Positions 9,187 to 50,249 of a DNA stretch of 64,000 nucleotides are shown here, piece by piece. Each line of letters starts with the position of its first letter. The stretch's first letter is position 1. Origin of the DNA: Streptomyces sp. Alt3. GTDB lineage: Bacteria; Actinomycetota; Actinomycetes; Streptomycetales; Streptomycetaceae. The translations under genes and the position numbers were made by a program. The stretch covers positions 1,612,001-1,676,000 of the forward strand of contig NZ_CP120983.1 of the NCBI RefSeq assembly GCF_030719215.1, written 5' to 3'. The notes under the pieces were generated by a model. It was not told the DNA's origin. It saw only the letters and a list, made by a program, of their open reading frames with translations, and ran no database searches.

Positions 9187-9255
9187 CTCGCCTATCAGGC
9201 GCATCGTCCGCCGGAGGCAATGTCAGTGCACCGCGGTAAAACAACGGCGACTCAC

Positions 9256-9273
9256 CTCCGGGATTCTCCGGAG
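9256..9273. promoter_or_regulatory. Small inverted repeat before the helicase operon
   Basis: CTCCGG-GATTCT-CCGGAG forms a 6-bp dyad ~40 bp upstream of the first helicase start, in the 113-bp gap after the kinase. It could be an operator or a weak attenuator. No -10/-35 pair is clear. Confidence 0.25.
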
Positions 9274-9311
9274 CGCATGCGAAACAGCAGTATGAAGGAA
9301 TGGAGCGGTAC

Positions 9312-12300: not shown

Positions 12301-12476
12301 AGGCCAAGCAGGACGTGAACCTCACGGCGAGCCGTCGCAAGTCCATGATCCGGTCGCTGCGGACCTCCGGAGCGCCGATGCTGCGCCTGCTCGGTGTCCT
12401 TGAACCGCTGTCCGCGACGCCTGCTGGCGTCACCGATGTATCTGCTGCGCCTGTTGCCGGAGAGACGATCGCCTGA
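9312..12476 (+). CDS. SNF2-family SF2 helicase (DrmD-like)
   Basis: This ~1054-aa SNF2/HepA-type ATPase has Walker A ADVVGLGKTLEIGILL at about residue 173, motif II as DESHN at ~274, motif III SATPHNG at ~306, and the C-terminal lobe with GDVASEGVNLHQQCHQL and motif VI RIEQRNGRIDRYGQ at ~575-615. This organisation matches DrmD of class 1 DISARM and related helicases, which act with a methylase and a DUF1998 helicase against phage DNA. The start is uncertain: GTG 9312 has GGAG six bases upstream, while ATG 9300 has AAGGA too close. The stop overlaps the next start by one base (TGATG), so translation is coupled to the methylase gene. The C-terminal ~300 residues contain no recognised domain. 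Confidence 0.88.
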   Translation: MTSVTETGDGQGAFDTEDAADEAMDSGVPGPTGAASLTRQAKYAPGAQVRVRDEQWLVKTVTPVGDEDWMVEATGVSSFVRGTDAVFYDKLDYIEALDPKKTLLVPDDSPNHRKARLYLEAVIRKTALPQTEHGLALADNFLMDQQTHQLRPAELALSKENPQPRVLIADVVGLGKTLEIGILLAELIRRGRGERILVVTPAHVLEQFQRELWTRFSIPLVRLDSTGIQRIQRDIPAGRNPFAYFKRAIISVDTLKSDVYAHHLENSHWDAVVIDESHNLVNRGTKNNDLARALAEHTDALILASATPHNGATESFAELIRMLDKTAIANTSEYDVKDLGHLYIRRTKTDREVRDSLKGKWADRGPSRPVICEAGPKERAVLEELAARWTPRDPAASSVCADTMVAYNLLKSFLSSHRAFQDSVVARRKVLEAPLKARRGQDPAAREAERRIEREAIVELERLAADIGDDDSAKLDALVRELKEIGVGPGSDMRVVVFSERIPTLKWLAEVVPARLGFRAGTKLEESVAESKPWLAYGGAVQVMHGEASNEDEQKDIVSKFGLKTDPVRILFTGDVASEGVNLHQQCHQLIHYDLPWSLIRIEQRNGRIDRYGQSKAPQFRAMVLTGDVEWRTDEKGEPLHLDDRLVGSKLLAREEEAHRIEGSAEAVTGIYRAKEEEDRLTRDLISGRTVEESIKKSSGGAKAMLGRLMGNVGAKKPTDDVPVATVPSLFGAAGSTAAYFDEALRQTYFPDKPENVLKLRREGDGTIAFEPPPDLVYRLKSLPKSYLTDQGILPTAKKEGRLRLTFDKGLAAKRLEVARETTESQWPNVSYVSDVHPVLDWVTDKALAALRHDEAFVLAFAPDLEAAGKLDERLPADLAGPVYLVQGIYSNAVGRPTVVEWMAVVGLPTAPRVLRIDDAFLTACKVGPKMPGRATPADREGLQTLVPTAVDAATVFLTDRAAEYKEAIDAVLAPYEKRVAQWQQDALFAASTRSQKAKQDVNLTASRRKSMIRSLRTSGAPMLRLLGVLEPLSATPAGVTDVSAAPVAGETIA

Positions 12477-18154: not shown

Positions 18155-21100
18155 GGCCGACGCTCGAGGCGCAGGGACTCAAGGAGAGCCTGCTGCAGTA
18201 CCTGTCCACCACCTACGCGCTGACCGACGAGGGCGCGCGGCAGGCGCTGCACCGGTTCCTGGGGGACGAGAACTCCGGGATGTTCCGGGGGCCGTTCCAC
18301 CGCCTGCGCACGCCGTTCGTCGCGGCCGACGCGTCCTGGACCAGGTACCTGGACTGGCGTCGGACCGACGGCTGGACACCGTACGCGCACCAGGCGAAAG
18401 CCTTCGAGCGGCTGTCCTCGGCGGGCGGCCGTACGCCGAAGCCCACGCTGGTGACGACCGGTACCGGCTCCGGCAAGACGGAGTCGTTCCTCTATCCCGT
18501 ACTGGACCACTGCGCCCGCGAGCGGGCGGTCGGCCGGGCTGGGGTCAAGGCCGTACTCCTCTACCCAATGAATGCGCTCGCCACCGACCAGGCCCAACGC
18601 ATCAACGAACTTCTGTGTGAACACGAGGCGTTGAAGAAGGTGAGGGCCGGTCTCTACATCGGCGACAAGGCGGCGACGCACTACGACCGGGTGTACACGC
18701 GCCGGTCGGACATGCAGATCTCGCCGCCCGACATCCTGATCACGAACTACAAGATGCTGGACCTTCTGCTCCAGCGGGCCCAGGACGGCCCGCTGTGGGC
18801 GGACGCGGACATCCGGTACGTGGTCGTGGACGAGTTCCACACCTACGACGGTGCGCAGGGCACGGACGTCGCGATGCTTCTGCGCCGCCTCGCCTCGGCG
18901 GTCGGGGTGGCGGAGAAGGGCCGTCCGTTGGGGCGGATCTGCCCGGTGGCGACCTCGGCAACGCTCGCCTCCGACAGCACGGACCAAGACGGGGTCCGCC
19001 AGCTGCTCGACGTCGCGACGCAGGTGTTCGGTACGGAGTTCGACGCGTCCTCGATCGTCGGGGAGCACCGGCAGACGGTGGACGAGTTCGTGCCGCCGAG
19101 CGGCTTCGATCCGATGCTGCCGATCCCGGTCCCGGACGAGTTGGCCACCCTCCCTGACCCCTCACTCGGCGAGGAGGAGTTCCTCGCGCTCGTCGAGGCC
19201 GTCACCGGCACCCGTGAGACCGACCCGCTCGTGCTCGGTGGCCTGCTGAAGAAGCACATGCTGACCTCGGCGGTGATGCACGCTCTGGACGGGCAGGTGC
19301 GGACCGTGCCCGAGGTGCTGGACCTGATGTGGCGGCGGGGCGCGTTCTCCTGGGGGCAGGCGATCACCCGGCAGCCGGAGGTGGCGGCGTCCGCCCTCGC
19401 CCGGCTCTTGGCGCTGCTCTCGGTGGCTCGTGATCCGGCCTCCACGCCCGAGCGGCCGCGGCCCTTCGTGCAGGTCGAGGTGCATCAGTGGGCGCGGTCG
19501 GTGTCGCGGGTCGTGCGCGGTGTGCTGCCGTGGCCCAAGGCCGAGTTCCAGTGGGACTCGGCCGGTTCCGCCCACCACTCGGGCGAGCAGCCGGCCCGTA
19601 CCGCCCCGGTGACGACGGCGACCGCGGGCGCGGCCGCGAACCTGTTTCTGCCCGCTGTCTACTGCCGTGACTGTGGCCGTTCGGGCTGGGCGGTGTTCTC
19701 CCCGGAGACCGACGACGCGGACGTACAGGTCGACACGCACAAGATCCGGCGTGCCTCGGTCAGCCAGGACAAGATGCGTGTCCGGAACCTGATAGCGGCC
19801 ACCGAGAAGGAGTCCCAGGAGGGCTCCGGTGCCGCCCTGATGGACGAGGCCGGGCGCGGTGCGGGCCGGGGCAGCACCGCCCTCGCGGCCACCAACGCCG
19901 GGCAGTTGCGTGTACTGGACGGGCCGAAGCGCCGCCTGCGGCTGCCCGACCCGGTCGAGGACTACGACCAGGAGACCGGCGCGCCCCGGTTGGCGGGCTC
20001 CGACTCAGCCTTCGTCCTCGTCTACCTCGGGGACACCGCGACCACCGCCGCAGAGGACGACTGGTGTCCGGCCTGCGGCTCGCACAACGCGATCCGCTTC
20101 CTCGGTACCGGTGCCGCTGCCCTCGCCGCGGCCTCGGTCACCCAGCTGTTCACCGGCGGCGAGATGGACCGGGCGCAGGGTGAGGACAAGACCCTGATGT
20201 TCAACGACTCGGTGCAGGATGCCGCACACCGGGCCGGGTTCGTGGCCAGCCGCTCGTACACCTTCTCCCTGCGCGCACTGTTCAAGAAGCATCTGTCGGA
20301 GGAGACGCCGACCGCGCTGCACGACCTGATCGCCGACGTGGTCGCGGCGACCACCGACCGCGAGACCCTTGCCGCCGTCGTCCCCACCGACCTGCACGAC
20401 TTCAAGGGCGTCAAGCGGCTCCTGTCCGGTCAGGGGCGAGGCGGGGACAAGAAGACCTGGGAGCTGATCGGCGAGCGCTTCGCGTTCGAGGCGCTGATGG
20501 AGTTCGGCTTCCGCTCCCGCAACGGCCGCACCCTGGAGCTCACCCGCACCGCCGCCGCCCACGTGCGCATCGAGGACCCCGCCGCCGCGATCGCCCTGGT
20601 CAAAGCCGCGCACACCGAGCCGTACGGGCACGGCGGCGGGCTGCCGGTCATCGAGCAGGACGACGCCCGCTACCTCGGGTTCCTGCGGATCTTCCTGGAG
20701 CGGCTGCGGACCCGTGGCGCGATCGGTCACAAGTGGCTGGAGGGGTACCTCTCGGAGGCCGGTACCAGCCGGTACTTCATCTGGGGCAAGCGGCCTCCCG
20801 GTATGCGTGCCTTCCCCAAGGGCATCGCGGCCCCGGTGTTCCTGCTCAGCGCACCCAAGACGAAGAGCGAGTTCGACTTCGCGACCGGCCGTCTCTCCTG
20901 GTATGAGCGGTGGGCACAGCGCACGCTCGGGCTGCCGCGGGAGCAGGCCGCGGAGTTCTGGGCGCGGCTCCTGCCCGCGCTGGTCGAGGCGGGCCTGCTC
21001 TCGGTGCGCACTCCGACCGACAGCAGCCTGCGCGTCTTCGGTCTGAAGCCTGGCGCGATCGACGTACAGCTGTTGAAGGACGCCGAGGTGAACGAGGCGT

Positions 21101-24100
21101 TTGTCCGCTGCCCGGACTGCTTCTGGGAGCAGACCGTCCACCCCGGCCTGCTCGCGCAGTGGGACGGGCAGCGCTGCCCGTCCTACCGCTGCCGCACCGG
21201 CATCCTCGTCGCGGGCGACCGGCCCGAAGGGCTCGGCAAGCACCAGCGGGACCGTAACTACCGCGAGGACTACTACCGCAGGCTGTACCGGAAGGCGGGC
21301 ACGTACCAGGTCATCACGGCCGAGCACACGGGCATGCTGACCCGGCCGGAGCGGGAGCGGGTCGAGGCGGCGTTCAAGGACGGCAGCGGGTTCAAGGATC
21401 CCAACGTGCTGTCCTGTACGCCGACGCTCGAAATGGGCATCGACATCGGCGACCTGTCGGCCGTCGTGCTCGCCGCGCTGCCCAGGCGCGCTGCCAACTA
21501 CGCCCAGCAGGTGGGCCGGGCAGGGCGCCGTACCGGAAATGCGTTCCTGCTGACCATCCCCGACCGCAGCCGCCGAGACCTGTACTACCTGGAGCAGCCG
21601 CGCGACATGATCGCCGGGCAGATCGTGCCGCCTGGCAGTCACCTGTCGGCCATCGAGATCCTGCGCCGCCAGTACCTCGCACACCTCCTCGACCTCGCCG
21701 CGCGGGGCCGGCTGTCGCGCACTGACGGCCGTCCGCTACCCGCAGTCGTACGGGACGCTCCGGCCCTCTTCGGCCCGTCCGGATACCTCGCCGATCTCGT
21801 CGAAGCGGCGCTCGCGGACGCCTCGAACCTGGTCGAGGGGTTCCTGGACCTATTTCCCGTCGGCGTCAACGAGCAGTCCGCCGACGACCTGCGGGCCTTC
21901 GCCGGGCGTGGGCTGCGCAGCGCGGTGGAGCGGGCCGAGCGACAGTGGCTCCACGCCGAGGAGGTGCTGCGGCGGCGACTGCGGTACATCGCGGAGGCCC
22001 GCGACGAACTCCACGACACCGAGGACGAACAGCGCGACCGTAAGGCCGAACTCGACGCCGAACACCGGGCGCTCGGCAAGCGCTTGAGCAAGCTCGGGCT
22101 CATCACCGCCCAGCAGGCCCTGTGTGATCTCGGACTGCTGCCTAACTACGCGCTCATCGACTCCGTCACCACCCTCAACGCGACGCTGTACTGGGTCGAC
22201 GGTATGGATCCGAACACCGGCCGGGACCGCTTCGACTCCAAGATCCGCTCCTACGACCGGCCCCGGCGCTACGCCCTGTCCGAACTCGCTCCCGGCAACA
22301 CGTTCTACGTGAACGGCTACAAGCACGAGATCACCGGCATCGACATCGGCAGCCCCTCTCAGCCGGACTGGAAGGCCTGGCGGTTCTGCCAGGAGTGCGG
22401 CTACGTCCGTACCGAGGACGCCAAGGACGACCGCTCGCCATGCCCGCGCTGCGGCAGCGCCGGGATCGCGGACGACGGTTCCTGCCTGCACCAGGTCATC
22501 GAGCCCACGACCGTCACCTCCCGCGACAAGCGCGAGGACGCCCGTATCGGCGACGATAAGGACGACCGGGAACAGCGCTACTACACCGTCATCGACGCGG
22601 TGGACATCCCCCGGGAGGAAATCAAGCACGGCGCGTCCTGGCGGCACGCCCACCACACCTTCGGCGTCGACTACTGCCGCAAAGCGGTAATCCGCCGCAT
22701 CAACGTCGGCCCGATGCGTTTCGACAGCCAGACCGAGGACGAGCTCGCCGGGCAGGATGTCCGCATGGCCCCGTTCCACGTGTGCACCGCGTGCGGGGCG
22801 GCGAGCGCCGATGGCAAGCCGGTCTTCGACCACGCCATCGACGCCTTGGACTCCTCGGCCGCCCACAACCCGAAGGTCAAGCACCACCAGCCGTGGTGCC
22901 CGCTGCGGCGTGGGAAGAAGGCCGCTACCGTGCCCCAGCAGCCGGTGCTCCTCGCCCACCAGTTGAACACCGAGGCGCTGCGGGTGCTCCTGCCGGCGGC
23001 TACCGTGCTCGTCGAGGAGAAGATCTACTCCTTCAAGGCCGCACTGCGGCTCGGCGTCGACCGCCAGTTCGGCGGCGACCCCGCGCACCTGGACACCACG
23101 CTGGCCCGGATGCCCGACCAGGCCACCGGCGAGAAGCGCCACTTCCTGGTGCTCTTCGACCGGCTCCCCGGCGGCACTGGATATCTGGACCGGCTGACCG
23201 ACCCCGGCGACTTCAAGGAAATGCTCCTCAAGGCTCGTGCCGCGCTCCTCGAATGCCCCTGTCAGGACGAGGGCCTGCGGGCCTGCCACCGCTGTCTGCA
23301 CCGCTACACCGAAGAACGCCACCAGGACGTCGTCTCACGCCACGAGGCCCTGGAAATCCTCGGCGACCTCCTCGGCCCGGTCGACGAGAACGGCGAGCCG
23401 CTGCGCGACGCCGACGGTAACCCCGTCGACGGGTGGGCGGTCACCAAGGTGGCGTCCACCGAACTGATCGGCCTGGACAAGCAGGTCGAGTCCGACCTAG
23501 AGGCCCGCTTCCTGGCCGCCCTGCGCAAGTGGAGCGAGAACCAGGACGACGCCGCACTCGACGAGAGTGGAACGAACAGCGGATACCTCCGCTTCACCGG
23601 TCCCACGGCCAGTGCGGGAGAGGCCGCCGATACCGATTCCGTACGCTCGACCGGCTGGCGGCTCACCGCCCAGCGCAGCATGGAGCACACCCGCACCGAC
23701 TTCACCTTTGAATCCACCGACGGCCCCCGCCGACTCGTCACCGTCTACCTCGACGGCCACAGGTACCACGCGAGCCGCAAGCACAATCGGATCGCGCCCG
23801 ACTGCACCAAGCGCAACCAGCTGCGGGCCGACGGGCACATCGTCTTCCAGATCACCTGGGACGACCTGGAGCTCTTCGAAAAAGGCGACGCCGCCAAGGC
23901 GCAGCCGGTGTGGCCGCCTTATCGGCGCATCGGCCAGGACACCGCCAAGGAGTGGTATGAGGAGCTGGGCGGCGACCGCGCCCACTACTCGGCCGCTGTG
24001 TTCGCCAACCCCATCGACACGCTCCTCGCCTACCTGCGCCAGCCCTCCCGTACCGCATGGGGGCGGCGGGCCAAGGCGTTGGTCGGCGGGCTGATGAGCA

Positions 24101-24999
24101 TGCCGGAGCCGCTCGTACAGCAGGCCGACGGGGGCCAGGCACGCGAAGCCGTACGGGCCGCACTCACCGCCCTCGGCCGCGGTCAGGAGCCGGGGCCGGA
24201 AGCCGGGGAAGGCGACGGAGAGATCCTCGTCCTGCACGCCGTGGACGAAAACGGGCTGCCGCTGATCTACACCGTGGACGCCTCCGGCCAGGAGCCGGGC
24301 TGGAGCGCCATCGCCGTACTCGACGACCGCACCGAGAACCTGGGCACCACCGAACACAAGCTGATGTGGCGGTCCTGGCTGTACTGGTCGAACCTGCTGC
24401 AGTTCCTGGCCTTCGCCGGCGGCGATGGCATCCAGCTCGCGAGCAGCCAGGCCGCCGACTACCCGGTGGAAGTCCTCACCATCAGCGGCGGCGTCGGCGA
24501 ACTCGAATCGCTGATCGTCCAGCGGAACCCGGCTGCCGACGAGGTGAGTTCTGTGGCGGACAGCCGCACCGCGGTACTCGCCGATGCGGCCGACGCCGAA
24601 TCGACGGAAGAGACCTCCCTGGAGAAGATGGTCGCCGGCGTCCTGCGGGACCGGACCTGGGACGAGGACATCCTCGAGCTCCTGGAAGAGGACGAACCGG
24701 AATCCGACCTCACCCGGCTGGCCAAGAAGATCGCCGCCAAGGGCAAGAAGGCGCCTGTCTTCGGTTACGAACTGGGCGAACGCGGCTGGCAGACGGACTT
24801 CGCCTGGGACGACTCCCAAATCAAGATCGCCGTCGTCGTGGCGCCGGACACACACGGATCACAAGCCGAAGAAGAGCGCCGCAAACGCGACGAGGCCTAC
24901 GCCGCCGACGGCTGGACCGTACGTACCGCCACCGACTGGCTCGACCACCTCGACACCCTCCTGACACTCCTCCCCGACACGGAAGGCTCCCACTCCTGA
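18151..24999 (+). CDS. YprA-family DEAD/DEAH helicase with DUF1998/MZB and C-terminal nuclease-like domains
   Basis: This ~2282-aa protein opens with an SF2 lobe: TGTGSGKTESFLYPV at ~103, DEFH at ~226 and TSATLAS at ~269. The second lobe is far downstream: CTPTLEMGIDIGDLSAVVLA at ~1090 and QQVGRAGRR at ~1120. Cys pairs that look zinc-binding occur at ~505, ~640, ~987, ~1413 and ~1545. The DUF1998/MZB cluster CPCQDEGLRACHRCLHRY lies at ~1702. Residues ~1835-1910 (TDFTFE, VYLDGHRYHAS, RNQLRADG, ITWDDLE) resemble a Vsr/DUF559 nuclease fold, and a weaker repeat lies at ~2204-2268 (WQTDFAWDDSQIKIAVV, DGWTV). The start is GTG 18151, preceded by GGAGGT; the longer frame to 18118 is unlikely. Size and order resemble Druantia DruE and the YprA helicases of DISARM-related systems more than DrmA. 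Confidence 0.88.
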   Translation: MRPTLEAQGLKESLLQYLSTTYALTDEGARQALHRFLGDENSGMFRGPFHRLRTPFVAADASWTRYLDWRRTDGWTPYAHQAKAFERLSSAGGRTPKPTLVTTGTGSGKTESFLYPVLDHCARERAVGRAGVKAVLLYPMNALATDQAQRINELLCEHEALKKVRAGLYIGDKAATHYDRVYTRRSDMQISPPDILITNYKMLDLLLQRAQDGPLWADADIRYVVVDEFHTYDGAQGTDVAMLLRRLASAVGVAEKGRPLGRICPVATSATLASDSTDQDGVRQLLDVATQVFGTEFDASSIVGEHRQTVDEFVPPSGFDPMLPIPVPDELATLPDPSLGEEEFLALVEAVTGTRETDPLVLGGLLKKHMLTSAVMHALDGQVRTVPEVLDLMWRRGAFSWGQAITRQPEVAASALARLLALLSVARDPASTPERPRPFVQVEVHQWARSVSRVVRGVLPWPKAEFQWDSAGSAHHSGEQPARTAPVTTATAGAAANLFLPAVYCRDCGRSGWAVFSPETDDADVQVDTHKIRRASVSQDKMRVRNLIAATEKESQEGSGAALMDEAGRGAGRGSTALAATNAGQLRVLDGPKRRLRLPDPVEDYDQETGAPRLAGSDSAFVLVYLGDTATTAAEDDWCPACGSHNAIRFLGTGAAALAAASVTQLFTGGEMDRAQGEDKTLMFNDSVQDAAHRAGFVASRSYTFSLRALFKKHLSEETPTALHDLIADVVAATTDRETLAAVVPTDLHDFKGVKRLLSGQGRGGDKKTWELIGERFAFEALMEFGFRSRNGRTLELTRTAAAHVRIEDPAAAIALVKAAHTEPYGHGGGLPVIEQDDARYLGFLRIFLERLRTRGAIGHKWLEGYLSEAGTSRYFIWGKRPPGMRAFPKGIAAPVFLLSAPKTKSEFDFATGRLSWYERWAQRTLGLPREQAAEFWARLLPALVEAGLLSVRTPTDSSLRVFGLKPGAIDVQLLKDAEVNEAFVRCPDCFWEQTVHPGLLAQWDGQRCPSYRCRTGILVAGDRPEGLGKHQRDRNYREDYYRRLYRKAGTYQVITAEHTGMLTRPERERVEAAFKDGSGFKDPNVLSCTPTLEMGIDIGDLSAVVLAALPRRAANYAQQVGRAGRRTGNAFLLTIPDRSRRDLYYLEQPRDMIAGQIVPPGSHLSAIEILRRQYLAHLLDLAARGRLSRTDGRPLPAVVRDAPALFGPSGYLADLVEAALADASNLVEGFLDLFPVGVNEQSADDLRAFAGRGLRSAVERAERQWLHAEEVLRRRLRYIAEARDELHDTEDEQRDRKAELDAEHRALGKRLSKLGLITAQQALCDLGLLPNYALIDSVTTLNATLYWVDGMDPNTGRDRFDSKIRSYDRPRRYALSELAPGNTFYVNGYKHEITGIDIGSPSQPDWKAWRFCQECGYVRTEDAKDDRSPCPRCGSAGIADDGSCLHQVIEPTTVTSRDKREDARIGDDKDDREQRYYTVIDAVDIPREEIKHGASWRHAHHTFGVDYCRKAVIRRINVGPMRFDSQTEDELAGQDVRMAPFHVCTACGAASADGKPVFDHAIDALDSSAAHNPKVKHHQPWCPLRRGKKAATVPQQPVLLAHQLNTEALRVLLPAATVLVEEKIYSFKAALRLGVDRQFGGDPAHLDTTLARMPDQATGEKRHFLVLFDRLPGGTGYLDRLTDPGDFKEMLLKARAALLECPCQDEGLRACHRCLHRYTEERHQDVVSRHEALEILGDLLGPVDENGEPLRDADGNPVDGWAVTKVASTELIGLDKQVESDLEARFLAALRKWSENQDDAALDESGTNSGYLRFTGPTASAGEAADTDSVRSTGWRLTAQRSMEHTRTDFTFESTDGPRRLVTVYLDGHRYHASRKHNRIAPDCTKRNQLRADGHIVFQITWDDLELFEKGDAAKAQPVWPPYRRIGQDTAKEWYEELGGDRAHYSAAVFANPIDTLLAYLRQPSRTAWGRRAKALVGGLMSMPEPLVQQADGGQAREAVRAALTALGRGQEPGPEAGEGDGEILVLHAVDENGLPLIYTVDASGQEPGWSAIAVLDDRTENLGTTEHKLMWRSWLYWSNLLQFLAFAGGDGIQLASSQAADYPVEVLTISGGVGELESLIVQRNPAADEVSSVADSRTAVLADAADAESTEETSLEKMVAGVLRDRTWDEDILELLEEDEPESDLTRLAKKIAAKGKKAPVFGYELGERGWQTDFAWDDSQIKIAVVVAPDTHGSQAEEERRKRDEAYAADGWTVRTATDWLDHLDTLLTLLPDTEGSHS

Positions 25000-27326
25000 T
25001 GACCGCCCGGCTCAGCCTGTACGAAAAGGCCGAACACGAGCTGTACAAGCTCGACCGCTCGGTCAAGGGAAAGTTCTACGACTTCTGCCACCGATTCCGG
25101 CAGAACCCCGACCACCCCGGCCTCGACCTCAAGCCCCTCAAGGGCGACGGACGGGTCTTCCGTGCCAAGATCGACCAGTCCTACCGCGCCCTCCTCGCCA
25201 AGGCCGGCGTGGACGAGCACGGCCAGGAACGGTGGCTCGTCGTCGCGGTACGCCACCGCAAGCACGTCTACGAAGAACTCTCCGTCGCGATCAACCGCGT
25301 CACCGGTGAGATCGAGTTCGTCGACCTGTCCGTCGTCGGGCAGAGCGTGCTGCAGCGCGCCGGCGTCACCCTCACCCCGGTCGACCCGACGCCCGAGGCC
25401 GAGCTCCAGCAGCCGGCACCGACCCCGGAGGTTCACGAGTCGATCGCCGTAGAGCCCGCCGCACCGCTCCTCTCCGGGATCACCGGCGAGAACCTGCGGT
25501 CACTCGGCGTCGCGGCACAGCTCATCGACCTCGCACTCGCCGTCACCGAGAGCGGCGAGCTCGACCAGCTGGTCTCCGGCGCCCCGCTCCTGACCAAGGA
25601 CATCCTCTACGGCCTGGCCGCCGGGATGTCCATCGACGAGGTCCGGCGCGAGATCACGGCCCCCGTCGAGGTCGAACTCGCCGACACCGAACGTGACGAC
25701 CTCGGCGCGGCACTGGCCCGCACCACCGTCACCACCATCGACGACGACCTCCGCGTCGTACTGGAGGAAGGCGACTTCCGGGCCTGGAAGGTCTTCCTCC
25801 ACCCTGCCCAGGCCAAGCTCGTCGACCGCCGCTACAACGGTCCCGCCCGGGTCTCCGGCGGCCCCGGAACCGGCAAGACGATCGTCGCCCTCCACCGGGT
25901 CAAGCACCTGGCCCAGCAGCTCCCTCCCGGCCACAACAAGCCCATCCTGCTCACCACCTTCACCACCAACCTCACCGTCGACCTCCGCGCCCGCCTCTCC
26001 TCCCTCCTCGAACCCGACCTCGTCGCCCGCGTCGAAATCACCAACATCGACAAGCTCGCGGCCCGCGTCCTGAACGAGAACTCACTCAGCGGCACCGGCA
26101 AGCAGCGCATCTACGACAGCGTCGCGATCGGCATCCTCCAGCACCTCCTGTTCGAACTCGACGAGAAGCGCTGGGAGCCCGAGTTCCTCTACGAGGAATG
26201 GGAACAGGTGATCCTCGGCCAGTCGCTCGGCAACCGCAAGGCGTACTTCGAGGCCCGCCGCGCAGGCCGCGGCCGGTCCGTCAACCGCCCCGAACGCGCC
26301 CAGATCTGGAAGATCCTCGAGCAGTTCACCGCCCGCCTCGACAAGGAGAACCGCGAAACCTGGGGCCAGGCAGCCGAACGCGCGGCCCGCTTCGAGATGG
26401 AACGCGCCGCCAAGATCAAGGCCAGGCAGGACCGTAAGGACGAGGTCGGCGGCAAGGACCTCATCCACCGCGACGACAGCTCCGGCATGCGCTACATCGC
26501 CCACCGCTACCAGCACGTCGTCGTCGACGAGGCCCAGGATCTGCGCCCCGCTCACTGGAAGATGCTCCGCGCCATGGTCGCCCCCGGCCCCGACGACATG
26601 TTCATCGCCGGCGACACCTACCAGCGCATCTACGACCAGCAGGTCACCCTCGGCACCGTCGGCGTCAACATCCGCGGCCGCTCCTCCCGCCTCACCCTCA
26701 GCTACCGGACCACCAAGGAGATCCTCGCCCGCGCGATGCAGGTCGTCGATGCCAAGGGCAACGCCCCCGCCTACGACGACCTCGACGACGGCACCGACAC
26801 CCTCGCCGGCTACCGCTCAGTCCTTCGCGGCCCTATCCCCGAACTCGCCCCCTGCGACACCTGGGACGACGAACTCACCCAACTCGCCACCACCCTCCAC
26901 GCCTGGCGCGAGGAACTCACCTCCGGCGACGGCGGCAACAACCCGCGCCGCGACCCCCGCGGCAACATCGCTGTCTGCGTCGCCGACCGCGACTCCGTCA
27001 ACCAGGTCATGTACTACCTCGCCACCGAGGCCGGCATCACCGTAGCCGAACTCACCAAGGACGGCGTCAAGGGCGACGGCGAAGTCCACGTCGGCACCAT
27101 GCACCGCTTCAAGGGCCTCGAATACCAGAAGCTCGCCATCGTCGGCGCCCGCGACGGCGTCATCCCCCGCACCACAGTCATCGACCGCTACCGCGAATCC
27201 GACCCCCAGCGCTACGCCCGCGAGGAACGCAAGGCCCGCTCCCTCCTCTTCGTCGCCGCCACCCGCGCCCGAGACACCCTCCGCATCAGCTGGCACGGGA
27301 CCTCGAGCCCTTATATTTCCCAATAG
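24999..27326 (+). CDS. UvrD/Rep-type SF1 helicase with RelE-like N-terminal domain
   Basis: The true start is ATG 24999, overlapping the previous stop (TGATG); the product is 775 aa. Residues ~1-95 look like a RelE/ParE-fold domain: SLYEKAEHELYKLDRSVKGK, LDLKPLKGDGRVFRAKIDQ, YRALLAKAG and VVAVRHRKHVYEE. The SF1A helicase follows, with SGGPGTGKTIVALHRVKHL at ~287, VVVDEAQDLRP at ~510, GDTYQRIYDQ, SYRTTKEIL, GTMHRFKGLEYQKLAIVGA and LLFVAATRARD. Such helicases unwind or translocate on single-stranded DNA. It is the last gene of the overlapping four-gene operon, so it probably acts with the SNF2 helicase, methylase and YprA helicase. The RelE-like part may bind ribosomes, RNA or another protein; no cognate antitoxin is adjacent. 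Confidence 0.87.
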   Translation: MTARLSLYEKAEHELYKLDRSVKGKFYDFCHRFRQNPDHPGLDLKPLKGDGRVFRAKIDQSYRALLAKAGVDEHGQERWLVVAVRHRKHVYEELSVAINRVTGEIEFVDLSVVGQSVLQRAGVTLTPVDPTPEAELQQPAPTPEVHESIAVEPAAPLLSGITGENLRSLGVAAQLIDLALAVTESGELDQLVSGAPLLTKDILYGLAAGMSIDEVRREITAPVEVELADTERDDLGAALARTTVTTIDDDLRVVLEEGDFRAWKVFLHPAQAKLVDRRYNGPARVSGGPGTGKTIVALHRVKHLAQQLPPGHNKPILLTTFTTNLTVDLRARLSSLLEPDLVARVEITNIDKLAARVLNENSLSGTGKQRIYDSVAIGILQHLLFELDEKRWEPEFLYEEWEQVILGQSLGNRKAYFEARRAGRGRSVNRPERAQIWKILEQFTARLDKENRETWGQAAERAARFEMERAAKIKARQDRKDEVGGKDLIHRDDSSGMRYIAHRYQHVVVDEAQDLRPAHWKMLRAMVAPGPDDMFIAGDTYQRIYDQQVTLGTVGVNIRGRSSRLTLSYRTTKEILARAMQVVDAKGNAPAYDDLDDGTDTLAGYRSVLRGPIPELAPCDTWDDELTQLATTLHAWREELTSGDGGNNPRRDPRGNIAVCVADRDSVNQVMYYLATEAGITVAELTKDGVKGDGEVHVGTMHRFKGLEYQKLAIVGARDGVIPRTTVIDRYRESDPQRYAREERKARSLLFVAATRARDTLRISWHGTSSPYISQ

Positions 27327-42383: not shown

Positions 42384-45300
42384 GTGAAGTGGCCTGAGAT
42401 CGATTTTTCTCAGATCCGGCCGCTGGGGGCTGAGGGTCAACGCTCCGGATTCGAGCAATTCGTCTGCGAGCTCGCGGCAGAGGACTGCCCAGCCGAAGGA
42501 GCCCGCTTCGTCAGCCTGCACGGCGCCGGCGGAGATGGCGGCGTCGAATGCTTCTGGACCCTTCCAGACGGCGCGGAGCATGGCTGGCAGGCAAAGTACT
42601 GGGTGACCGGAGACGCCGTCGCCAAGCAGCAGCTCGACAAGTCGGTGTCGGCCGCGCTCGATGTCCACCCGCAGCTCACAAAGTACGTAATCGCTATCCC
42701 AGTCGATCCCACAGGGCCCACGGTCAAACGGGGGACCCAGCCGCTCCGCAGCAGCACCAAGCCTCGCGGACGTGAAAGGAAGTCGCTACACGAGAAGGTG
42801 TACGACACCGGCGGCTGGCTCGACAGCTGGAAACAGATGGCCATCGACCGGGACTTGACGGTCACCTTCGAGGTCGAGTGGGCTACGAATCTGATCGCCC
42901 GCTTCAAGAAAATCGACACCACCGGTGTGCGGACCCGCTTCTGGTTTGACGCCGAAATCCTCGCTGCCCAATGGTGGCAGGACCGTCTAGATGAAGCCGT
43001 CCAAGCGGCGCGTCCCCGGTACGTGCCGGAGCTTAGCGTGCGCATCCCGGCAACCCAGCATGCCCTGGAAGCCCTGTGCAGCGACGGGGCATGGGCTCAC
43101 CGGGTGAGCGTCGACATCACTCGCTTGCAGAAGCTTAACGACAGGCTTCGAGGCAATGCTTTCGACGGGCGGAAGGAAGTCACGGAGCCCGAACTCCCAG
43201 CCGTACGGGCGCTTGGAGCAAAGCTGGTTGACGCGCTGATTCAGTGGCGAGAACACCCATCTGAGGCGACTACTACCGTGCTGCAAGCAGCGCTCACTGC
43301 AGTCCAGGCGGCGAGTTCAAGGGCGGAGACAGCCGAGGGGGCAAGGCTGGATGCTGCGCATCAATCTGGTTGGGACACTCCTTCCTGGCGACAATGGAAT
43401 GCCGAGTACATGGGGACGTTTCCCGCCGCTGCCATGGATGCGCTGCGCGAACTGAACAGATTCCTGGCTGAACTGTCCGATCGAGTGATGGGTCCCACAG
43501 GACACCTTCGGACGGAGCGCACCGCCGTAGTGACAAGTCCAGCTGGTATGGGCAAGACGTTCGTCACTCTGGACTACGTCGTTCAACGCCTGCACTCTGG
43601 GCGTCCGAGCGTGTTTGTGCATGGCCGCCACTTCCGAGACGGACCCGTCCTTGAGCAGTTGCGGGTACTCCTCGGCCTGCCAGCCGACCTCAACGGCAAC
43701 GACGTACTGGCCCTCCTAGACCAAGCCGGCCACAGCGCCGGGTGCCCAGTGCTCTTGGTGATCGACGCGCTCAACGAGTCTCGACCACGGACAGTCTGGC
43801 GTGACGAGCTCGACACACTGATCACCAAGATCAATCGCTTCGAGCACCTGCGCGTCGTACTCACCTTCCGCTCTCATTACCGGGCCCAGGTACTGCCCCA
43901 GGAGCTCGTCCTCCCGGAGATCGTGCACCGCGGCTTCGACGGCGTGGAGTACGAAGCGCTCCGGGAGTACGCCGACTTCTATCGCCTGGAACCGCCAGCC
44001 GCGCCGCCCATTCAGGCAGAGTTCAGCAGCCCTCTCTTCTTGCGCCTCCTGTGCGAAGCCTTCAAAGAGCAAGGGCGCCTCTCACTGGAAGAAGCCGCCA
44101 TTGGTCTGGACGAACTCGTTGACCTGCTGCTGGACCAGATCAATCGCCGCATCAGTAATCAGTTGAACGCCCCCGTCGCGGACCAAATCGTCCACCAAGC
44201 GATGCACGCCATCGCCGAACGACTTGGCAGCGGAACGCAGCCATGGATTGACCGCACGGGTGCGCACACCCTGCTGCAGGACATCTGGCCCGGGCGCACC
44301 GCCGACAGATCCCTCCTCGAATGCCTCGTTGGCGAAGGACTACTGGCCGAGGACATTGACTCGAGTGCCACCAGACCGCGACGCAATGTCGTCGCTATGG
44401 CCTTCGAACGGCTCGGACATCACCTCGTCGTCGTTGCCGCGATGTCCGAGCTCAGCAACCAGAAGCAGGTGCGCCAAGCGCTCTCCGGAGGCTCGCTACG
44501 CCAGCTTCTAGGAATAGATACAGAGCCCGATCCGGGGCTGCTGGAGGCTCTCTCCGTGGTCCTGGGGCAGCTAGGGATGGAACTGACAGAATTCCGTGAC
44601 CAAGTCGGCGAGGAGCAAGCCATCGCGGCGGTCGTCGCGGGCCTTCCCTGGCGCTCGGGGTCGAGCATCACCGAGGCCACGATCGACTGTGTTGACGCTG
44701 CCCTCCGCCGATCCGAAACCTTCGGCGAAGCCATGGACATGCTGTTCCGCCTCGCGCCCCGCTCTGGTCATCTTCTCAACGCCGATTATCTTGACGCGCT
44801 GTTTTCCGCCCGCTCGATGGCAGCACTCGACGCCTTCCTTGTTCCTTGGCTGCACGGAACGAAGGAGAGGGGCGGAGCCGCGCATCGTTTGATCGCATGG
44901 GCCCGGGACCGTGACATCAGCCGTACCAGCTCCGAAACATGCCGGCTTTGGACGACGGCCATACTGTGGTGCACCAGCTGCCCAGACCGACGCGTTCGTG
45001 ACGACGCTACCCTCGGGGCAGCACGACTGCTAATCGCTCACCCGGAACTGGTGCCTGAGTTGCTCAGGCAATTCCTGGACGTCGTCGATGACTGGGTCAG
45101 TGAGCGGGCCTGCTATGCCGCCTACACCGCCTTGCTGCGCTCCGGCACGGCTACACACTGGCAGGAAGCCGCACGGGCCGTGTGGAACGTGGTATTCGCC
45201 GACGAAACACCCCTGAACGCGGCTCTGCGCGATGAAGCCCGGCACATTGTCGAAGCAGCAGCCGAACGAGGTGCTCTCCCCGCCGATGTAGACCTCGCCC

Positions 45301-46637
45301 GAGTGGAACCGCCCTATCCAAGCGCATGGCCCATCACCTGGCCGTCGCCCGTTGATGTGGAAAGGTATCAGGAAGACCGGGGCGACTACCCCAAGCTCCA
45401 CTTCAGCTGTACCGCTGATGACTTCTCGACCTACGTCATCGAGTCGGCGCTGAGAGACCGGCTTGGCATCGACCCCGACGATGCGGCGCGCCGCATCCTG
45501 TTGGACGCCATTGAACTCGGCTACGATCCCAACCACCACGCGCCCTTTGACCGCCACGTCCTAAACACCTACGGCAGCGGCCGCAGCAAGCCGAGCTGGA
45601 TTGAGCGCATCGGCAAGAAGTACCAGTGGATCGCTTTCGCCCGACTGCTCGGCCAGATCAACGACCATGTTTCCCCGGCCCGAGATCGCTGGTCCCCACC
45701 GAAGCCCGCCACGCCCGGCCCGCAATCGACCCGCCTACGCCAGATGGACCCCACCGTCTGTGACGCTGAGCCTGACGCCGTTGTCCCACCCCGGCCCTAC
45801 GTACCGGCATACGCCTGGGATGCCTACGACCAGGCGCCCTCCCCCGAAGCCTGGATTGCCGACGACACAGGGCTGCCAGACCTGCCGGTTGAGTTCACCG
45901 GTGGCACCGGCCCACGGGTAATCCTGGCGGGCAACTACGACTGGCGGCAAGAGGGCGAGCGGGACGAGAGCACCCCAACCCTCTGGGCCCATTTGGTGTC
46001 CCTCTTCGTCAAGAAGTACGACCTGGACGCCCTTGTGTCGGAATTGACGGCCAAGGACCTGGGCCATGACGTCAGCCGAGTGGGCGGAGCAAGGTACGGG
46101 GATGGGTTCGTCGGCGAGTTTCCCTTTGGACAGCACTACGGAGCCGAAACACACCTTTACAAGCATGAGCACGATGAACCTTTCGGCGTCCCCACGATCG
46201 CAACCACGGTCGACATCCTGGGCGAGTATGAGTACTCAACCGTCAACCGCATCTCATTGATCGCTCCCGCACCGATCCTGTTCGGCCCGGCGCCCGGCGA
46301 CCTGAGCTGGGACGGCAAATCCGCCTGGCACGACGCGGAAGGCCGCCCAATCGCTGCCGTACGGAATGTCTTCGGCGAAGGGCAGAACGAACTCACCATT
46401 GACCGGGTCTGGCTGGAGAAGTGGCTGGAAGATCACGAGATGACCATCGTTTGGCTCGAGCTCCTCGGCAAAGACCTCCTGCGCAGCAGCTTCCACAACG
46501 GCCACCCCGGCCGGCTTCTACGCTCCCGAGCACGCCACCTCACCGCAGACGGACGAATCGCCACCCTAGAGCCTTACTACGAGCGCATCCCCTCTTGGCA
46601 CGAAGACAAGTCGAAGGACGGCTTCACCTTGGGTTAG
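42384..46637 (+). CDS. Avs-like STAND NTPase with N-terminal Mrr/Cap4-like nuclease
   Basis: This 1417-aa protein starts at GTG 42384, six bases after AGGAGG. Residues ~45-75 (HGAGGDGGVECFWTLPDG, then GWQAKYW) show the E...QxK strand pair of PD-(D/E)xK nucleases of the Mrr/Cap4 type. A STAND/AAA-type NTPase follows: P-loop VVTSPAGMGKTFVTL at ~385, Walker B VLLVIDALNES at ~456, and VVLTFRSHY as a sensor-like segment. The C-terminal ~750 residues are helical and probably sense a phage protein, as in Avs (AVAST) systems. No membrane segment is present. It is the first cargo gene after the transfer block. Activation would be expected to unleash DNA cleavage. Another STAND subclass is possible. 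Confidence 0.78.
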   Translation: MKWPEIDFSQIRPLGAEGQRSGFEQFVCELAAEDCPAEGARFVSLHGAGGDGGVECFWTLPDGAEHGWQAKYWVTGDAVAKQQLDKSVSAALDVHPQLTKYVIAIPVDPTGPTVKRGTQPLRSSTKPRGRERKSLHEKVYDTGGWLDSWKQMAIDRDLTVTFEVEWATNLIARFKKIDTTGVRTRFWFDAEILAAQWWQDRLDEAVQAARPRYVPELSVRIPATQHALEALCSDGAWAHRVSVDITRLQKLNDRLRGNAFDGRKEVTEPELPAVRALGAKLVDALIQWREHPSEATTTVLQAALTAVQAASSRAETAEGARLDAAHQSGWDTPSWRQWNAEYMGTFPAAAMDALRELNRFLAELSDRVMGPTGHLRTERTAVVTSPAGMGKTFVTLDYVVQRLHSGRPSVFVHGRHFRDGPVLEQLRVLLGLPADLNGNDVLALLDQAGHSAGCPVLLVIDALNESRPRTVWRDELDTLITKINRFEHLRVVLTFRSHYRAQVLPQELVLPEIVHRGFDGVEYEALREYADFYRLEPPAAPPIQAEFSSPLFLRLLCEAFKEQGRLSLEEAAIGLDELVDLLLDQINRRISNQLNAPVADQIVHQAMHAIAERLGSGTQPWIDRTGAHTLLQDIWPGRTADRSLLECLVGEGLLAEDIDSSATRPRRNVVAMAFERLGHHLVVVAAMSELSNQKQVRQALSGGSLRQLLGIDTEPDPGLLEALSVVLGQLGMELTEFRDQVGEEQAIAAVVAGLPWRSGSSITEATIDCVDAALRRSETFGEAMDMLFRLAPRSGHLLNADYLDALFSARSMAALDAFLVPWLHGTKERGGAAHRLIAWARDRDISRTSSETCRLWTTAILWCTSCPDRRVRDDATLGAARLLIAHPELVPELLRQFLDVVDDWVSERACYAAYTALLRSGTATHWQEAARAVWNVVFADETPLNAALRDEARHIVEAAAERGALPADVDLARVEPPYPSAWPITWPSPVDVERYQEDRGDYPKLHFSCTADDFSTYVIESALRDRLGIDPDDAARRILLDAIELGYDPNHHAPFDRHVLNTYGSGRSKPSWIERIGKKYQWIAFARLLGQINDHVSPARDRWSPPKPATPGPQSTRLRQMDPTVCDAEPDAVVPPRPYVPAYAWDAYDQAPSPEAWIADDTGLPDLPVEFTGGTGPRVILAGNYDWRQEGERDESTPTLWAHLVSLFVKKYDLDALVSELTAKDLGHDVSRVGGARYGDGFVGEFPFGQHYGAETHLYKHEHDEPFGVPTIATTVDILGEYEYSTVNRISLIAPAPILFGPAPGDLSWDGKSAWHDAEGRPIAAVRNVFGEGQNELTIDRVWLEKWLEDHEMTIVWLELLGKDLLRSSFHNGHPGRLLRSRARHLTADGRIATLEPYYERIPSWHEDKSKDGFTLG

Positions 46638-46996: not shown

Positions 46997-47332
46997 GTGA
47001 CCACGACTGTCCCCACCGCTGCGGACGCCAGAGAGCTGTACGACTTCCTCAGCCGACGCGTCGACGAGGAGCACACGGCCGCCCTCGCCGACGAGACCCT
47101 GGAGGGAGAGGCGCAGGCCCGGTACTTCCGCCTCTCCAACGCCAGCAAGTACGGCCTCCCGGGCACCGTCGAGTCCGTCTCGTACCTCCTCGCCCAGGGC
47201 GACACCGAGGGCGTAACGCGGGTATGGCACCTGCTGACAGGTGCCGGCGAGCAGTGGCGGGACCACGCCGACTACCTCCCCGCCTGGCAGAACCCCCAGC
47301 TGGCGAGCATCCGCCAGGCCCTCGAAGGCTGA
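46997..47332 (+). CDS. 111-aa protein, first gene of a HEPN-containing pair
   Basis: GTG 46997, eight bases after AGGAG, starts a helical, acidic protein (ARELYDFLSRRVDEEHTAAL, GTVESVSYLLAQGDTEGVTR, VWHLLTGAGEQWRDHADYLP). I do not recognise the family. The next gene starts 6 bp after its stop and encodes a HEPN/zinc-ribbon protein, so the two are co-translated. By position it could be an antitoxin or partner of the HEPN protein, but it has no MNT nucleotidyltransferase motif. Confidence 0.65.
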   Translation: MTTTVPTAADARELYDFLSRRVDEEHTAALADETLEGEAQARYFRLSNASKYGLPGTVESVSYLLAQGDTEGVTRVWHLLTGAGEQWRDHADYLPAWQNPQLASIRQALEG

Positions 47333-47338
47333 CGCCCG

Positions 47339-48448
47339 ATGACGCATCCGCCTATACAGGCCGACGACTCGGACGACAGCGAGCGGTCGGCCGACGACAT
47401 GCCGCGGGTGGTGCGGCGGTCGTTCATCCGCCGGGTCCGCGAGGTCGAGTTCGCCGGCGACGCGCACTTCCCGCCCGTCGCCAACGGTCTCGACTACCTT
47501 GTCAGCGTCGTCGAGCTTCTGCAGCGCGAGGAAGGGGCGGCCAGCGCCCGGGATCTGAAGTACGCGGTGCTGCACTTGGCCGCCGGGGCCGAGGTCCTCC
47601 TCAAGTCCCGGCTGCACATGGAGCACTGGAGCCTGGTCTTCACCGACCCCGGAGCGGCCACCTGTACGGCCTTGGAGGACGGCTCGCTGTCCAGCTGCAC
47701 CCCGGAACAGACGCGGAAGCGGCTGAAGAACATCGTCGGGATCACCTTCGCCAGCCATGAAGAGCAGGCGCTGAAGGACCTCGCCAGCAGCCGCAACGCT
47801 CTGCAACACTGGGGGCTGATCGGCGACCAGGCACGCGCGGCCGTGGTTGCCTCGACCACCGCCACTGTGCTGAACTTCCTCGTGTCGTTCGTGGACAACC
47901 ACCTGCTCCCCGAGCTGAAAGAGCCCGAGCGCAGCGCGGCCGAGCTGGAGATGGAACACGTCCGCGACGGGCTCCACTACATCGAGGAGTACGTACGCGA
48001 GCGCATGAAGGATCTGGCGCCCCGGCTCGGACCGGTCCGGCCTATGACCGTCCAGTGCCCGCTGTGCGGTCAGTGGGCCCTGGTCGTGCCGGGATTCAAG
48101 GACGGCCCGGACACCGACCGCATTGACGACACTTACAACGTCGAGTGCTTGTTCTGCAGCGCGTCATTTAACGCGGTCGAGGCGGCTCACGAGTACAACG
48201 CAGCCATCCTGGGATGCTACTCGGAGGCCGAGGAGTACGACGGTCCAGAGGGCATCTACACCTGCCCGCTGTGCCCACACGGCCTGCTCATCCGCGGAGT
48301 CTCCACGGCGGCTGACCGGGAGCGCCCGGTGGACTTCTGCTTCGCCTGCGCAACCAGCTTTGACAACCTGCAGAAGTGCCAACGCTGCGGAGCCGTGCAG
48401 CCAGCGGAGGAAGAGCACCGGTGCCCCTTCGCACGGAGCCTGCTGTGA
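47339..48448 (+). CDS. HEPN-domain protein with C-terminal zinc ribbons
   Basis: In this 369-aa protein, residues ~55-200 are helical and contain LKYAVLHLAAGAEVLLKSRL and SSRNALQHWG. The R-x4-H spacing (RNALQH, ~152) is the HEPN ribonuclease signature. The C-terminal ~130 residues hold repeated Cys pairs (CPLCGQW, CLFC, CPLCPHG, CFAC, CQRCG, CPFA), likely two or three zinc ribbons that could bind RNA or DNA. HEPN proteins are common RNase effectors in toxin-antitoxin and abortive-infection systems. It is coupled to the 111-aa gene upstream. Substrate and activation are unknown. Confidence 0.72.
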   Translation: MTHPPIQADDSDDSERSADDMPRVVRRSFIRRVREVEFAGDAHFPPVANGLDYLVSVVELLQREEGAASARDLKYAVLHLAAGAEVLLKSRLHMEHWSLVFTDPGAATCTALEDGSLSSCTPEQTRKRLKNIVGITFASHEEQALKDLASSRNALQHWGLIGDQARAAVVASTTATVLNFLVSFVDNHLLPELKEPERSAAELEMEHVRDGLHYIEEYVRERMKDLAPRLGPVRPMTVQCPLCGQWALVVPGFKDGPDTDRIDDTYNVECLFCSASFNAVEAAHEYNAAILGCYSEAEEYDGPEGIYTCPLCPHGLLIRGVSTAADRERPVDFCFACATSFDNLQKCQRCGAVQPAEEEHRCPFARSLL

Positions 48449-48488
48449 GCCGCCCGGCCCTGGCCGAGCCGCATGAGAAGCTAACTAA

Positions 48489-50249
48489 GGGCGTGCAGAT
48501 CATTTACTTGCCTTCTTGATCTTTCACTAGAGCAGGTCAGAAGCGAGGAACGTCGTGATGTCGGCTGGTGTGCGGAAGCGGGCGGTGGAGGCATCGACTC
48601 GAGGGCCGTGTGCTTCGAGGAGTGGGCGAATTTCCTGGTTCGCTCGGCAGATGGTCACGGCGGAGACGCCGAACAGTTGGCCCAAGAGGTCCATGGTGGC
48701 GAGTTTGCGCAGGTGGAGCACGGTGGCCAGGACCCGGTCGGCTGGGGTGAGCTTGGCTTTGGCACCTGTGCCCGGTGCGACCAGACGCTCGTGACCACGA
48801 CGTGCGCGGAGCACGTCCTCGCGTTGAGCCTCCAGCGCTGGAGTCAGCTCGTCGATGAGCTCGCTGAGCCGCTGGCGGGTCATCCCGGTCAGTTCCGGGT
48901 CCTGCAGCGAACGCCGCGTGAGGTGATCCAGCCTGTTCGCCTGGGCCTGGTCGGGGGTGTTGTTGATCGCCGTCGCCTCCCGCGAGGGCTGCGGGTGGAG
49001 GGTGTAGTTCCAGTCGCCGTGGAAGCGGTGTCGGGTGATCGGCAGGGCGGCAAGTTCGTCATCACTGACCTGGACGCCGGTGGGATAGAGGTTGGTGTCG
49101 AGTTCGGCGTGAACGGTCAGGCCGGTCTTCGTGGTGGTCGCGGCGATGCTCTGGACGATGACTTCGTGGCTGGTCAGAGGCCTTCCACGCCAGTTCATGG
49201 TGATGTGGGAGAACAGCCGGTGCTCGATCCGGTTCCACTTCGAAGTTCCGGGAGGCAGGTGGCAGACGGTAACCGTCAGGCCGGCCTCGGTGGCGAACCG
49301 GGCGAGTTCGGTCTTCCAGGTGCGGGTGCGATAGCCGTTGGAGCCGCCCGCATCGGCGGTGATCAGGAGCCGGTCGGCCGTCGGGTAGGCGGCCCGGCCG
49401 GCTCCGTTCCACCAGCGGCGGATCGATTCGACGGCGAACGCGGCGGTGTCGTGGTCGGTGCCCACGTTGACCCAGCCGGTGTTCGCGGCGACGTCGAAGA
49501 TGCCGTAGGGCACCGCTCTGCCCAGCTCGCGGTCGGGGAAGTCGTGGGTGTCGACCCGCACCGGTTCGCCTCTCGGCTCCCATTCACGGCCGTTGTTTTT
49601 GAACGGGCCGACCAGTTCCTTCTTCTTCGTGTCCACGCTGATCACCGGAGCTCCGCAGTCCTGGTGATCACGGGCCTGCTCGTTGAGGTAGTGGAACTGT
49701 GCGTCACGGTCGGGATGCTGCTTGCCTTCCAGCGTCTTGGCGTTGCTCTGCAGGCTGAAGCCCTCCTCGCGCAGCAGGTCGCCCACCGTGTCCGCACAGA
49801 TCTTGTGGCCCTGCCGGGTCAGCTGCTCGGCGAGCTTGCGGGTGGATTTGGTGGTCCAGCGCAACGGCGACATGGGATCTCCGCGGACGTCCGGCTCGAC
49901 CAGCGTGAGGAGTGCTTCCCGAACGGCCGGGTTCCGGTCGACGACGCGTTTGCGGCCGGCGCCGGACCGGCGAATGCGTCCCAATGGCACTTCTCCGGAG
50001 TCGAGTTCCCGCACTCCGACAGACACAGTGGCCTCACGGACACCGGCGGCACGGGCGACTGCTCTGATCCCGCCGTGGCCGAGGGACTGGGCCTCCGCCC
50101 CTATCAACAAGCGACGCTGCCGCTCGTCGAGGTGCGGCAGAATCGCCTCGAACTTGGCTGCCAGTACAGTCGGTTGTCTCTCTAACCCGCTCATGTCACA
50201 CCAACGACACACCGAGCGGAAAGCTACGAGTTAATGATCTGCACGCCCT
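48489..50249 (-). mobile_element. Complete ISAzo13-family insertion sequence, ~1.76 kb
   Basis: Terminal inverted repeats GGGCGTGCAGATCATT (48489-48504) and its complement (50234-50249) bracket one transposase gene. The flanks carry TAA on both sides, a likely 3-bp target duplication. The element lies directly beside an IS5 remnant. Confidence 0.88.
48527..50194 (-). CDS. ISAzo13-family transposase
   Basis: This ~555-aa transposase starts at ATG 50194, with a GTG at 50212 as an alternative. An N-terminal helix-turn-helix (DERQRRLLIGAEAQSLGHGG, AVARAAGVREATVSVGVREL) is followed by the DDE catalytic core: VISVDTKKKELVG for the first Asp, LLITADAGGSNGYRTRTW for the second, and CHLPPGTSKWNRIEHRLFSH for the Glu. 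These are the signature stretches of ISAzo13. It fills the element between the inverted repeats. It looks intact and is unrelated in function to the defence cargo. Confidence 0.93.
   Translation of the reverse strand: MSGLERQPTVLAAKFEAILPHLDERQRRLLIGAEAQSLGHGGIRAVARAAGVREATVSVGVRELDSGEVPLGRIRRSGAGRKRVVDRNPAVREALLTLVEPDVRGDPMSPLRWTTKSTRKLAEQLTRQGHKICADTVGDLLREEGFSLQSNAKTLEGKQHPDRDAQFHYLNEQARDHQDCGAPVISVDTKKKELVGPFKNNGREWEPRGEPVRVDTHDFPDRELGRAVPYGIFDVAANTGWVNVGTDHDTAAFAVESIRRWWNGAGRAAYPTADRLLITADAGGSNGYRTRTWKTELARFATEAGLTVTVCHLPPGTSKWNRIEHRLFSHITMNWRGRPLTSHEVIVQSIAATTTKTGLTVHAELDTNLYPTGVQVSDDELAALPITRHRFHGDWNYTLHPQPSREATAINNTPDQAQANRLDHLTRRSLQDPELTGMTRQRLSELIDELTPALEAQREDVLRARRGHERLVAPGTGAKAKLTPADRVLATVLHLRKLATMDLLGQLFGVSAVTICRANQEIRPLLEAHGPRVDASTARFRTPADITTFLASDLL

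Follow-up and report, generated by a model that had tools for sequence, protein, structure and literature searches.

A divergent HEC-08/PDC-S64-type HEPN-zinc-ribbon gene of Streptomyces, probably a mobile single-gene effector, and the small gene that precedes it

Within a defence-rich region of an 8.65-Mb Streptomyces genome, a gene for a small acidic protein of 111 aa is followed on the same strand, after 6 bp, by a gene for a 369-aa protein that combines a HEPN domain with zinc ribbons. The initial annotation of this stretch (64,000 nucleotides, hereafter the window) treated the two as a unit, potentially a new HEPN-based toxin-antitoxin or abortive system, and both open reading frames and the gap between them are confirmed (Table 1). 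The question raised by this locus is whether the two genes belong together, or whether the HEPN gene acts, and moves, by itself.

Table 1. Coordinates of the features discussed, in the window and at six enterobacterial plasmid loci
Feature	Sequence	Coordinates	Strand	Evidence or remark
GmrSD-like type IV gene	window	4719-6812	-	
PD-T4-6-like kinase	window	7999-9186		
DrmD-like SNF2 helicase	window	9300-12476		
Type IIG enzyme-methylase	window	12476-18154		
Druantia-E-like helicase with MZB domain	window	18151-24999		
UvrD-like helicase	window	24999-27326		
Avs2-like STAND gene	window	42384-46637	+	neighbour, outside unit; PADLOC E = 1.2e-255; below NCBIfam Avs2 cut-off
Gene for acidic, probably helical 111-aa protein	window	46997-47332	+	family unassigned; pairing with the HEPN gene not conserved
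HEPN plus three-zinc-ribbon gene, 369 aa	window	47339-48448	+	HEC-08 / PDC-S64 / DUF3644-like
HEPN domain, residues about 44-195	window	47468-47923	+	pLDDT mostly 87-98 here; VIA-align HEPN-chain matches, Z up to 10.4
Rx4H motif, R152 to H157, predicted RNase active site	window	47792-47809	+	conservation
Zinc ribbon 1: C240, C243, C270, C273	window	48056-48157	+	cysteine conservation
Zinc ribbon 2: C309, C312, C334, C337	window	48263-48349	+	cysteine conservation
Probable zinc ribbon 3: C347, C350, C362	window	48377-48424	+	missing from some Streptomyces homologues
ISAzo13-family transposase	window	48527-50212	-	in the position of a tyrosine recombinase at many homologous loci; inverted ends near 48488 and 50249
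HEPN/Toprim_N gene, after ResD-like recombinase or HEC-08 set	L197	5229-6128		
HEPN/Toprim_N gene, after ResD-like recombinase or HEC-08 set	L200	5239-5904		
HEPN/Toprim_N gene, after ResD-like recombinase or HEC-08 set	L202	5184-6083		
HEPN/Toprim_N gene, after ResD-like recombinase or HEC-08 set	L209	4202-5446		
HEPN/Toprim_N gene, 'before' region	L201	2613-3845		
HEPN/Toprim_N gene, 'before' region	L207	1607-2866		

The Rx4H signature attributed to the 369-aa protein is found at R152-NALQ-H157 (codons 47792-47794 for the arginine and 47807-47809 for the histidine). Taken alone this is weak evidence, because 61% of shuffled 369-aa sequences contain some Rx4H and the protein has a second copy at R91; the motif is significant because it is conserved across homologues. 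The survey that had been proposed as a check found both R and H kept in 41 of 42 sequences (window counted), the sole exception being the degenerate copy L085. An alignment of the window protein with 44 of the 72 other intact rows, picked by the analyst (A3), has R152, N153, H157, C240, C243, C270, C273, C309, C312 and C334 invariant in all 45 rows. The same is true of E85-x3-K89, which lies within helix 70-95 of the structural model and corresponds to the Ex3[KR] pattern of the second HEPN helix, just as R152-N153...H157 corresponds to the HEPN Rx4-6H pattern with a polar residue after the arginine. Downstream of the HEPN domain the several Cys-pair ribbons are also borne out, as five CxxC pairs starting at residues 240, 270, 309, 334 and 347. 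From the Pseudomonadota, 17 plasmid regions were opened, chosen for spread; E85, K89, H96, R152, N153, H157 and all 11 ribbon cysteines are kept in 16/16 relatives, a count that leaves out L203, annotated as a shorter ORF. The fold, the active site (E85, K89, R152, N153, H157) and the cysteines of a HEPN domain with three zinc ribbons are supported in both Streptomyces and Pseudomonadota. The gene is under purifying selection, with a dN/dS of 0.34 between the window copy and its S. goshikiensis relative.

The AF2 model of the 369-aa protein has a mean pLDDT of 86.4 and is confident apart from the first 40 residues. Among the 19 best rows of a VIA-align comparison, we take 18 chains, all except 3mfn, to be HEPN or HEPN-fold. 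Their Z-scores of 10.4 to 7.2 exceed those of the unrelated rows, although the tool itself advises caution below about 13 for helical bundles, so that a Z near 10 is only suggestive. HEPN toxins, HEPN-MNT complexes and Csm6 predominate at the top of the list, and families missing from it are not thereby excluded. A Foldseek search with the same model returned no match at E <= 0.001. On the modelled structure, the protein is predicted to have the HEPN helical fold. Its best structural matches are to HEPN-MNT toxin-antitoxins, from which the locus differs in having no adjacent MNT gene, its other neighbours being the Avs2-like gene and an ISAzo13 element. HepS of Gifsy-1 (PDB 9oik/9oij), which according to its PDB title binds a phage tail tip, also matches across the HEPN region (Z 7.2 and 6.5), yet shares only 14-15% sequence identity with the window protein.

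Among PADLOC profiles, which here carry no curated cut-off, PDC-S64 matches the 369-aa protein with E=4.6e-19 (residues 47-357 of 369), HEC-08 with 5.6e-17 (residues 48-281) and DUF3644 with 6.4e-16, against no DUF3644 match in Pfam at E <= 1. All three profiles also match the eight other Streptomyces-side relatives scanned (8/8), and two enterobacterial relatives reach 5.7e-70 and 1.6e-149 against HEC-08. By these matches the protein is a new, divergent actinobacterial member of the known candidate family HEC-08/PDC-S64 (DUF3644-type HEPN). It resembles the family in the extent of the profile over HEPN domain and ribbons, in length, in the R-N-H residues and in the cysteine set, and differs in its weaker scores and in the lack of an adjoining recombinase. 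The expectation of a new kind of HEPN system is not upheld, since these candidate families already cover the protein. Nor is the pairing of HEPN with ribbons unusual, as had been supposed: in the available text of Anantharaman et al. (2013; PMC3710099, Table 1) the EC042_2821 family is described, with its HEPN domain joined to a zinc ribbon; it overlaps DUF3644 and occurs in restriction-modification operons. That family shares the Rx4-6H HEPN, but is described there as also fused to wHTH and REase domains, neither of which is detected in the window protein. PDCs are candidates proposed by 'guilt by embedding', several HECs being proven antiviral and most PDCs awaiting validation (PMC12988326); the portion available of the PADLOC 2021 paper contains none of the terms HEC, DUF3644 or HEPN. 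Conjugative plasmids commonly carry the enterobacterial form, with 153 plasmid records at E <= 1e-10, and many of these records give HEC-08 HEPN-ribbon proteins the label 'hsdR'. This is apparently a naming error, because E85/K89/R152/H157 and the ribbon cysteines are those of the HEPN-ribbon family.

The distribution of the gene is patchy, with 40 of 295 genus genomes carrying it (own included). Besides the window, 125 homologue loci were assembled from the genus search, plasmids, GTDB contigs and IMG/VR, with overlap between the genus genomes and the named contigs; the resulting 126 loci were reduced to 107 by dropping identical C-termini and to 96 with an ORF of at least 290 aa. Gene calls were simple codon-model calls by the analyst, with HEPN start codons chosen to match the query. 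Searching the GTDB contigs with the single protein gave no loci, and with the profile of alignment A1 it gave 79. Homologues lie on five IMG/VR contigs, and tblastn against 50,697 phage records gave no match at E <= 0.01. Compared with its 87% identical relative from S. goshikiensis, the window shows nucleotide similarity over the HEPN gene and its immediate flanks (-4 to +7 bp) and nowhere else. Little beyond the gene is common to many further pairs of 75-95% identity, though in others the similarity extends hundreds of bp upstream and in a few over kilobases. The HEPN-ribbon gene therefore travels largely alone, with gene-precise mobility. Multiple copies per contig were also observed. Two identically scoring copies lie on opposite strands near both ends of one contig (G129:C1:59560-60564 and 8472029-8473033), a layout that fits the terminal inverted repeats of a linear chromosome; two others share a strand on G088:C4 (8974-9864 and 46139-47029); and L054 has two diverged HEPN-ribbon genes (9205-10392 and 10952-12067) less than 2 kb apart.

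The 111-aa gene does not share this history. By tblastn it is present at 0/125 homologue loci of the HEPN gene, and profile searching of every ORF at these loci, at maximal sensitivity, gave only noise, the best, non-significant match (E=0.29) being a 219-aa upstream gene at L046. Conversely, the HEPN gene is found at none of the four other 111-aa loci. The family is rare but real, occurring in 5 of 295 genus genomes by profile (own included; two weak) and in 3 of 72,556 plasmid records; three 18-residue matches in viral records were disregarded. Similarity to the S. goshikiensis relative sets in 4 bp ahead of the HEPN start codon and so breaks off within the 6 bp that separate the two genes. 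Gene content and this boundary led to the rejection of a two-gene toxin-antitoxin, and the finding that the initial annotation had named as refuting the pair, lack of association elsewhere, is the one obtained. The 111-aa protein had been described as acidic, helical and not an MNT antitoxin. It is acidic (pI 4.7), and its identity as an MNT antitoxin was rejected, there being no nucleotidyltransferase match in Pfam, NCBIfam or PADLOC; the helical character appears only in a low-confidence, all-helical single-sequence model (pLDDT 55), too poor for a fold search. Nothing exceeds a curated cut-off in Pfam, and nothing was found in NCBIfam or PADLOC. The gene is read here as a separate item of cargo that by chance precedes the HEPN gene.

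The 369-aa gene is thus probably a single-gene mobile HEPN-zinc-ribbon effector of the HEC-08/PDC-S64 kind, whose RNase activity would lead to growth arrest or abortive infection. Most likely the protein would be a dimeric, metal-independent HEPN RNase held silent during normal growth. Its three-ribbon array, as sensor or substrate grip, would recognise, or be displaced by, a product of phage or plasmid invasion, upon which the HEPN site R152/N153/H157, aided by E85/K89, would cut cellular RNA and growth would stop before the invader spreads, with no need of a dedicated antitoxin gene. Such an RNase-based abortive mechanism is plausible because a HEPN-type effector with a conserved active site lies in defence cargo, so that the abortive half of the original proposal stands while its toxin-antitoxin half and its novelty do not. 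Further points for a single-gene defence role come from the neighbours of relatives, one of which comes a short way behind a complete type II CBASS operon (L194, 1286-9047, on an E. coli IncHI2A plasmid) and another near a QatA gene (L204), with Avs2 here. A precedent is Tha of S. aureus prophages (PMC11087260), described in the text available as a proven, Abi-like anti-phage system, the H270A mutant of which loses protection. Tha likewise is a mobile-element-borne HEPN RNase effector (RNSIMH) outside a classical toxin-antitoxin pair, but its HEPN domain is C-terminal, the available text makes no mention of zinc, and its inhibitor Ith is arranged antisense. The 369-aa gene offers a compact test case for a largely unvalidated candidate family that is common on conjugative plasmids.

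Two other readings are both improbable. That the 111-aa protein silences the HEPN RNase in this lineage alone, as Ith does Tha, whether as a special toxin-antitoxin or an effector-inhibitor pair, would suit its small size and acidity, the 6-bp gap with its possible co-translation, and a HEPN gene without a clear ribosome-binding site of its own directly upstream (by eye). Lineage-specific inhibitors are conceivable because at 7 of 83 loci, counting the window, the HEPN gene is overlapped or preceded at no more than 60 bp by a gene of the same orientation, whose family differs between loci; the 219-aa gene at L046 is one of these. The low probability given to such a role is kept alive by the parallel with Tha, which, in the text available, is inhibited by a small protein formerly annotated as an excisionase (PMC11087260), 111-aa relatives themselves sitting before recombinases. 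Against it, the 87%-identical relative is among the loci lacking the small gene, and the other 111-aa proteins are conserved without a HEPN gene. Slightly less probable still is that the HEPN-ribbon protein is an RNA-processing or regulatory nuclease of plasmids and islands rather than a defence effector, in which case processing of RNA or DNA, not sensing, might be the task of the ribbons. Many transcription and ribosomal proteins contain zinc ribbons, and a PDB sequence search with the A1 profile gave only weak ribbon matches, the best to S27e ribosomal ribbons (E=0.0012); patchy distribution, plasmid or island setting, defence neighbours and gene-precise transfer argue the other way.

A less remote alternative, though one still judged unlikely, starts from the neighbour on the other side. 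Among the 96 intact genes of the Streptomyces side, 24 are followed at +1/+2 by a co-directional tyrosine recombinase; the figure for genes matched in size is 9 of 429 (Fisher 1.4e-12). Recombinase-profile hits fill 31/208 slots at +1/+2, 2/204 at -1/-2 and 14/1134 further out, the 24/96 and 31/208 counts being biased towards seed families because the profile was seeded from six +1 genes. A seed-independent check with Pfam gave a smaller excess in the same place: PF00589, the commonest +1 family, at +1 in 14/95 and at -1 in 2/94. In 17 of the 24 cases the recombinase is the next gene (once 2.7 kb away), and eight of these 17 overlap the HEPN gene by 4 bp. The recombinases fall into at least three clusters, with catalytic residues kept in nearly all of 24 aligned sequences. 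Their presence is no more clustered on the HEPN tree than shuffled labels would be (23 changes; shuffled mean, 23.7), which implies repeated gain or loss of the neighbour. Pseudomonadota have the opposite order: in 9 of the 17 regions HEC-08 follows, at 15-20 bp and on the same strand, a recombinase of about 255 aa that shares about 52% identity with a protein annotated resD. Two more have a HEPN/Toprim gene between (11/17 upstream in total), three show another arrangement nearby and three none. Of the four 111-aa relatives, three likewise have a recombinase downstream, at 4 bp, at 15 bp or beyond one intervening gene, and ccdAB precedes resD on F plasmids in the available text of PMC5065971 and PMC4398462.

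On this alternative, HEPN-zinc-ribbon RNases and tyrosine recombinases would form a cross-phylum module in which the RNase, co-expressed with the integrase or ResD-like resolvase that keeps the element, has its level or state set by that recombinase or by the state of its DNA, as the arrangements of ccd-resD and Tha-Ith suggest; if the element were lost or excised, or an invasion occurred, the RNase would be released, and the module would both guard the element and retain it. Small genes ahead of recombinases, the 111-aa family being another occupant of that slot, would be interchangeable regulators, and the window copy would have lost its recombinase, perhaps through ISAzo13, which begins about 40 bp past the HEPN stop codon in the place concerned. 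Set against this are the 72 of 96 Streptomyces-side genes without a recombinase, the difference in gene order between phyla and the window itself, where neither profile nor tblastn detected a recombinase or remnant; in a search of its own genome, no more than a fragment of 63 residues at a distant site turned up. Recombinases of the same subfamily are also found after unrelated genes, again with a 4-bp overlap, for which reason the plainest interpretation is that the HEPN genes occupy a cargo slot next to integrases and resolvases. The association is nonetheless the part worth following: were the coupling functional, defence or toxicity would be tied to the residence state of a mobile element, a route not found described in the literature searched. 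On enterobacterial plasmids a HEPN/Toprim_N gene also accompanies HEC-08 at the ResD-like recombinase, following it in four regions and preceding it in two, and an ISAzo13 transposase is the +1 gene at L097 and L129 too (3/95 scanned, window included).

The single-gene effector favoured above sits in the defence cargo that had been recognised from the start, next to the STAND gene, which proves Avs2-like. A partnership with Avs2 was considered and rejected, with no full Avs2 match at any other locus searched and a short one (119 residues, 27% identity) at L101. A TraG/TraD-type coupling protein is encoded downstream. Defence cargo is also dense at window positions 4719-27326, where the DrmD-like, type IIG, Druantia-E-like and UvrD-like genes, arranged head to tail, might be one uncharacterised system.
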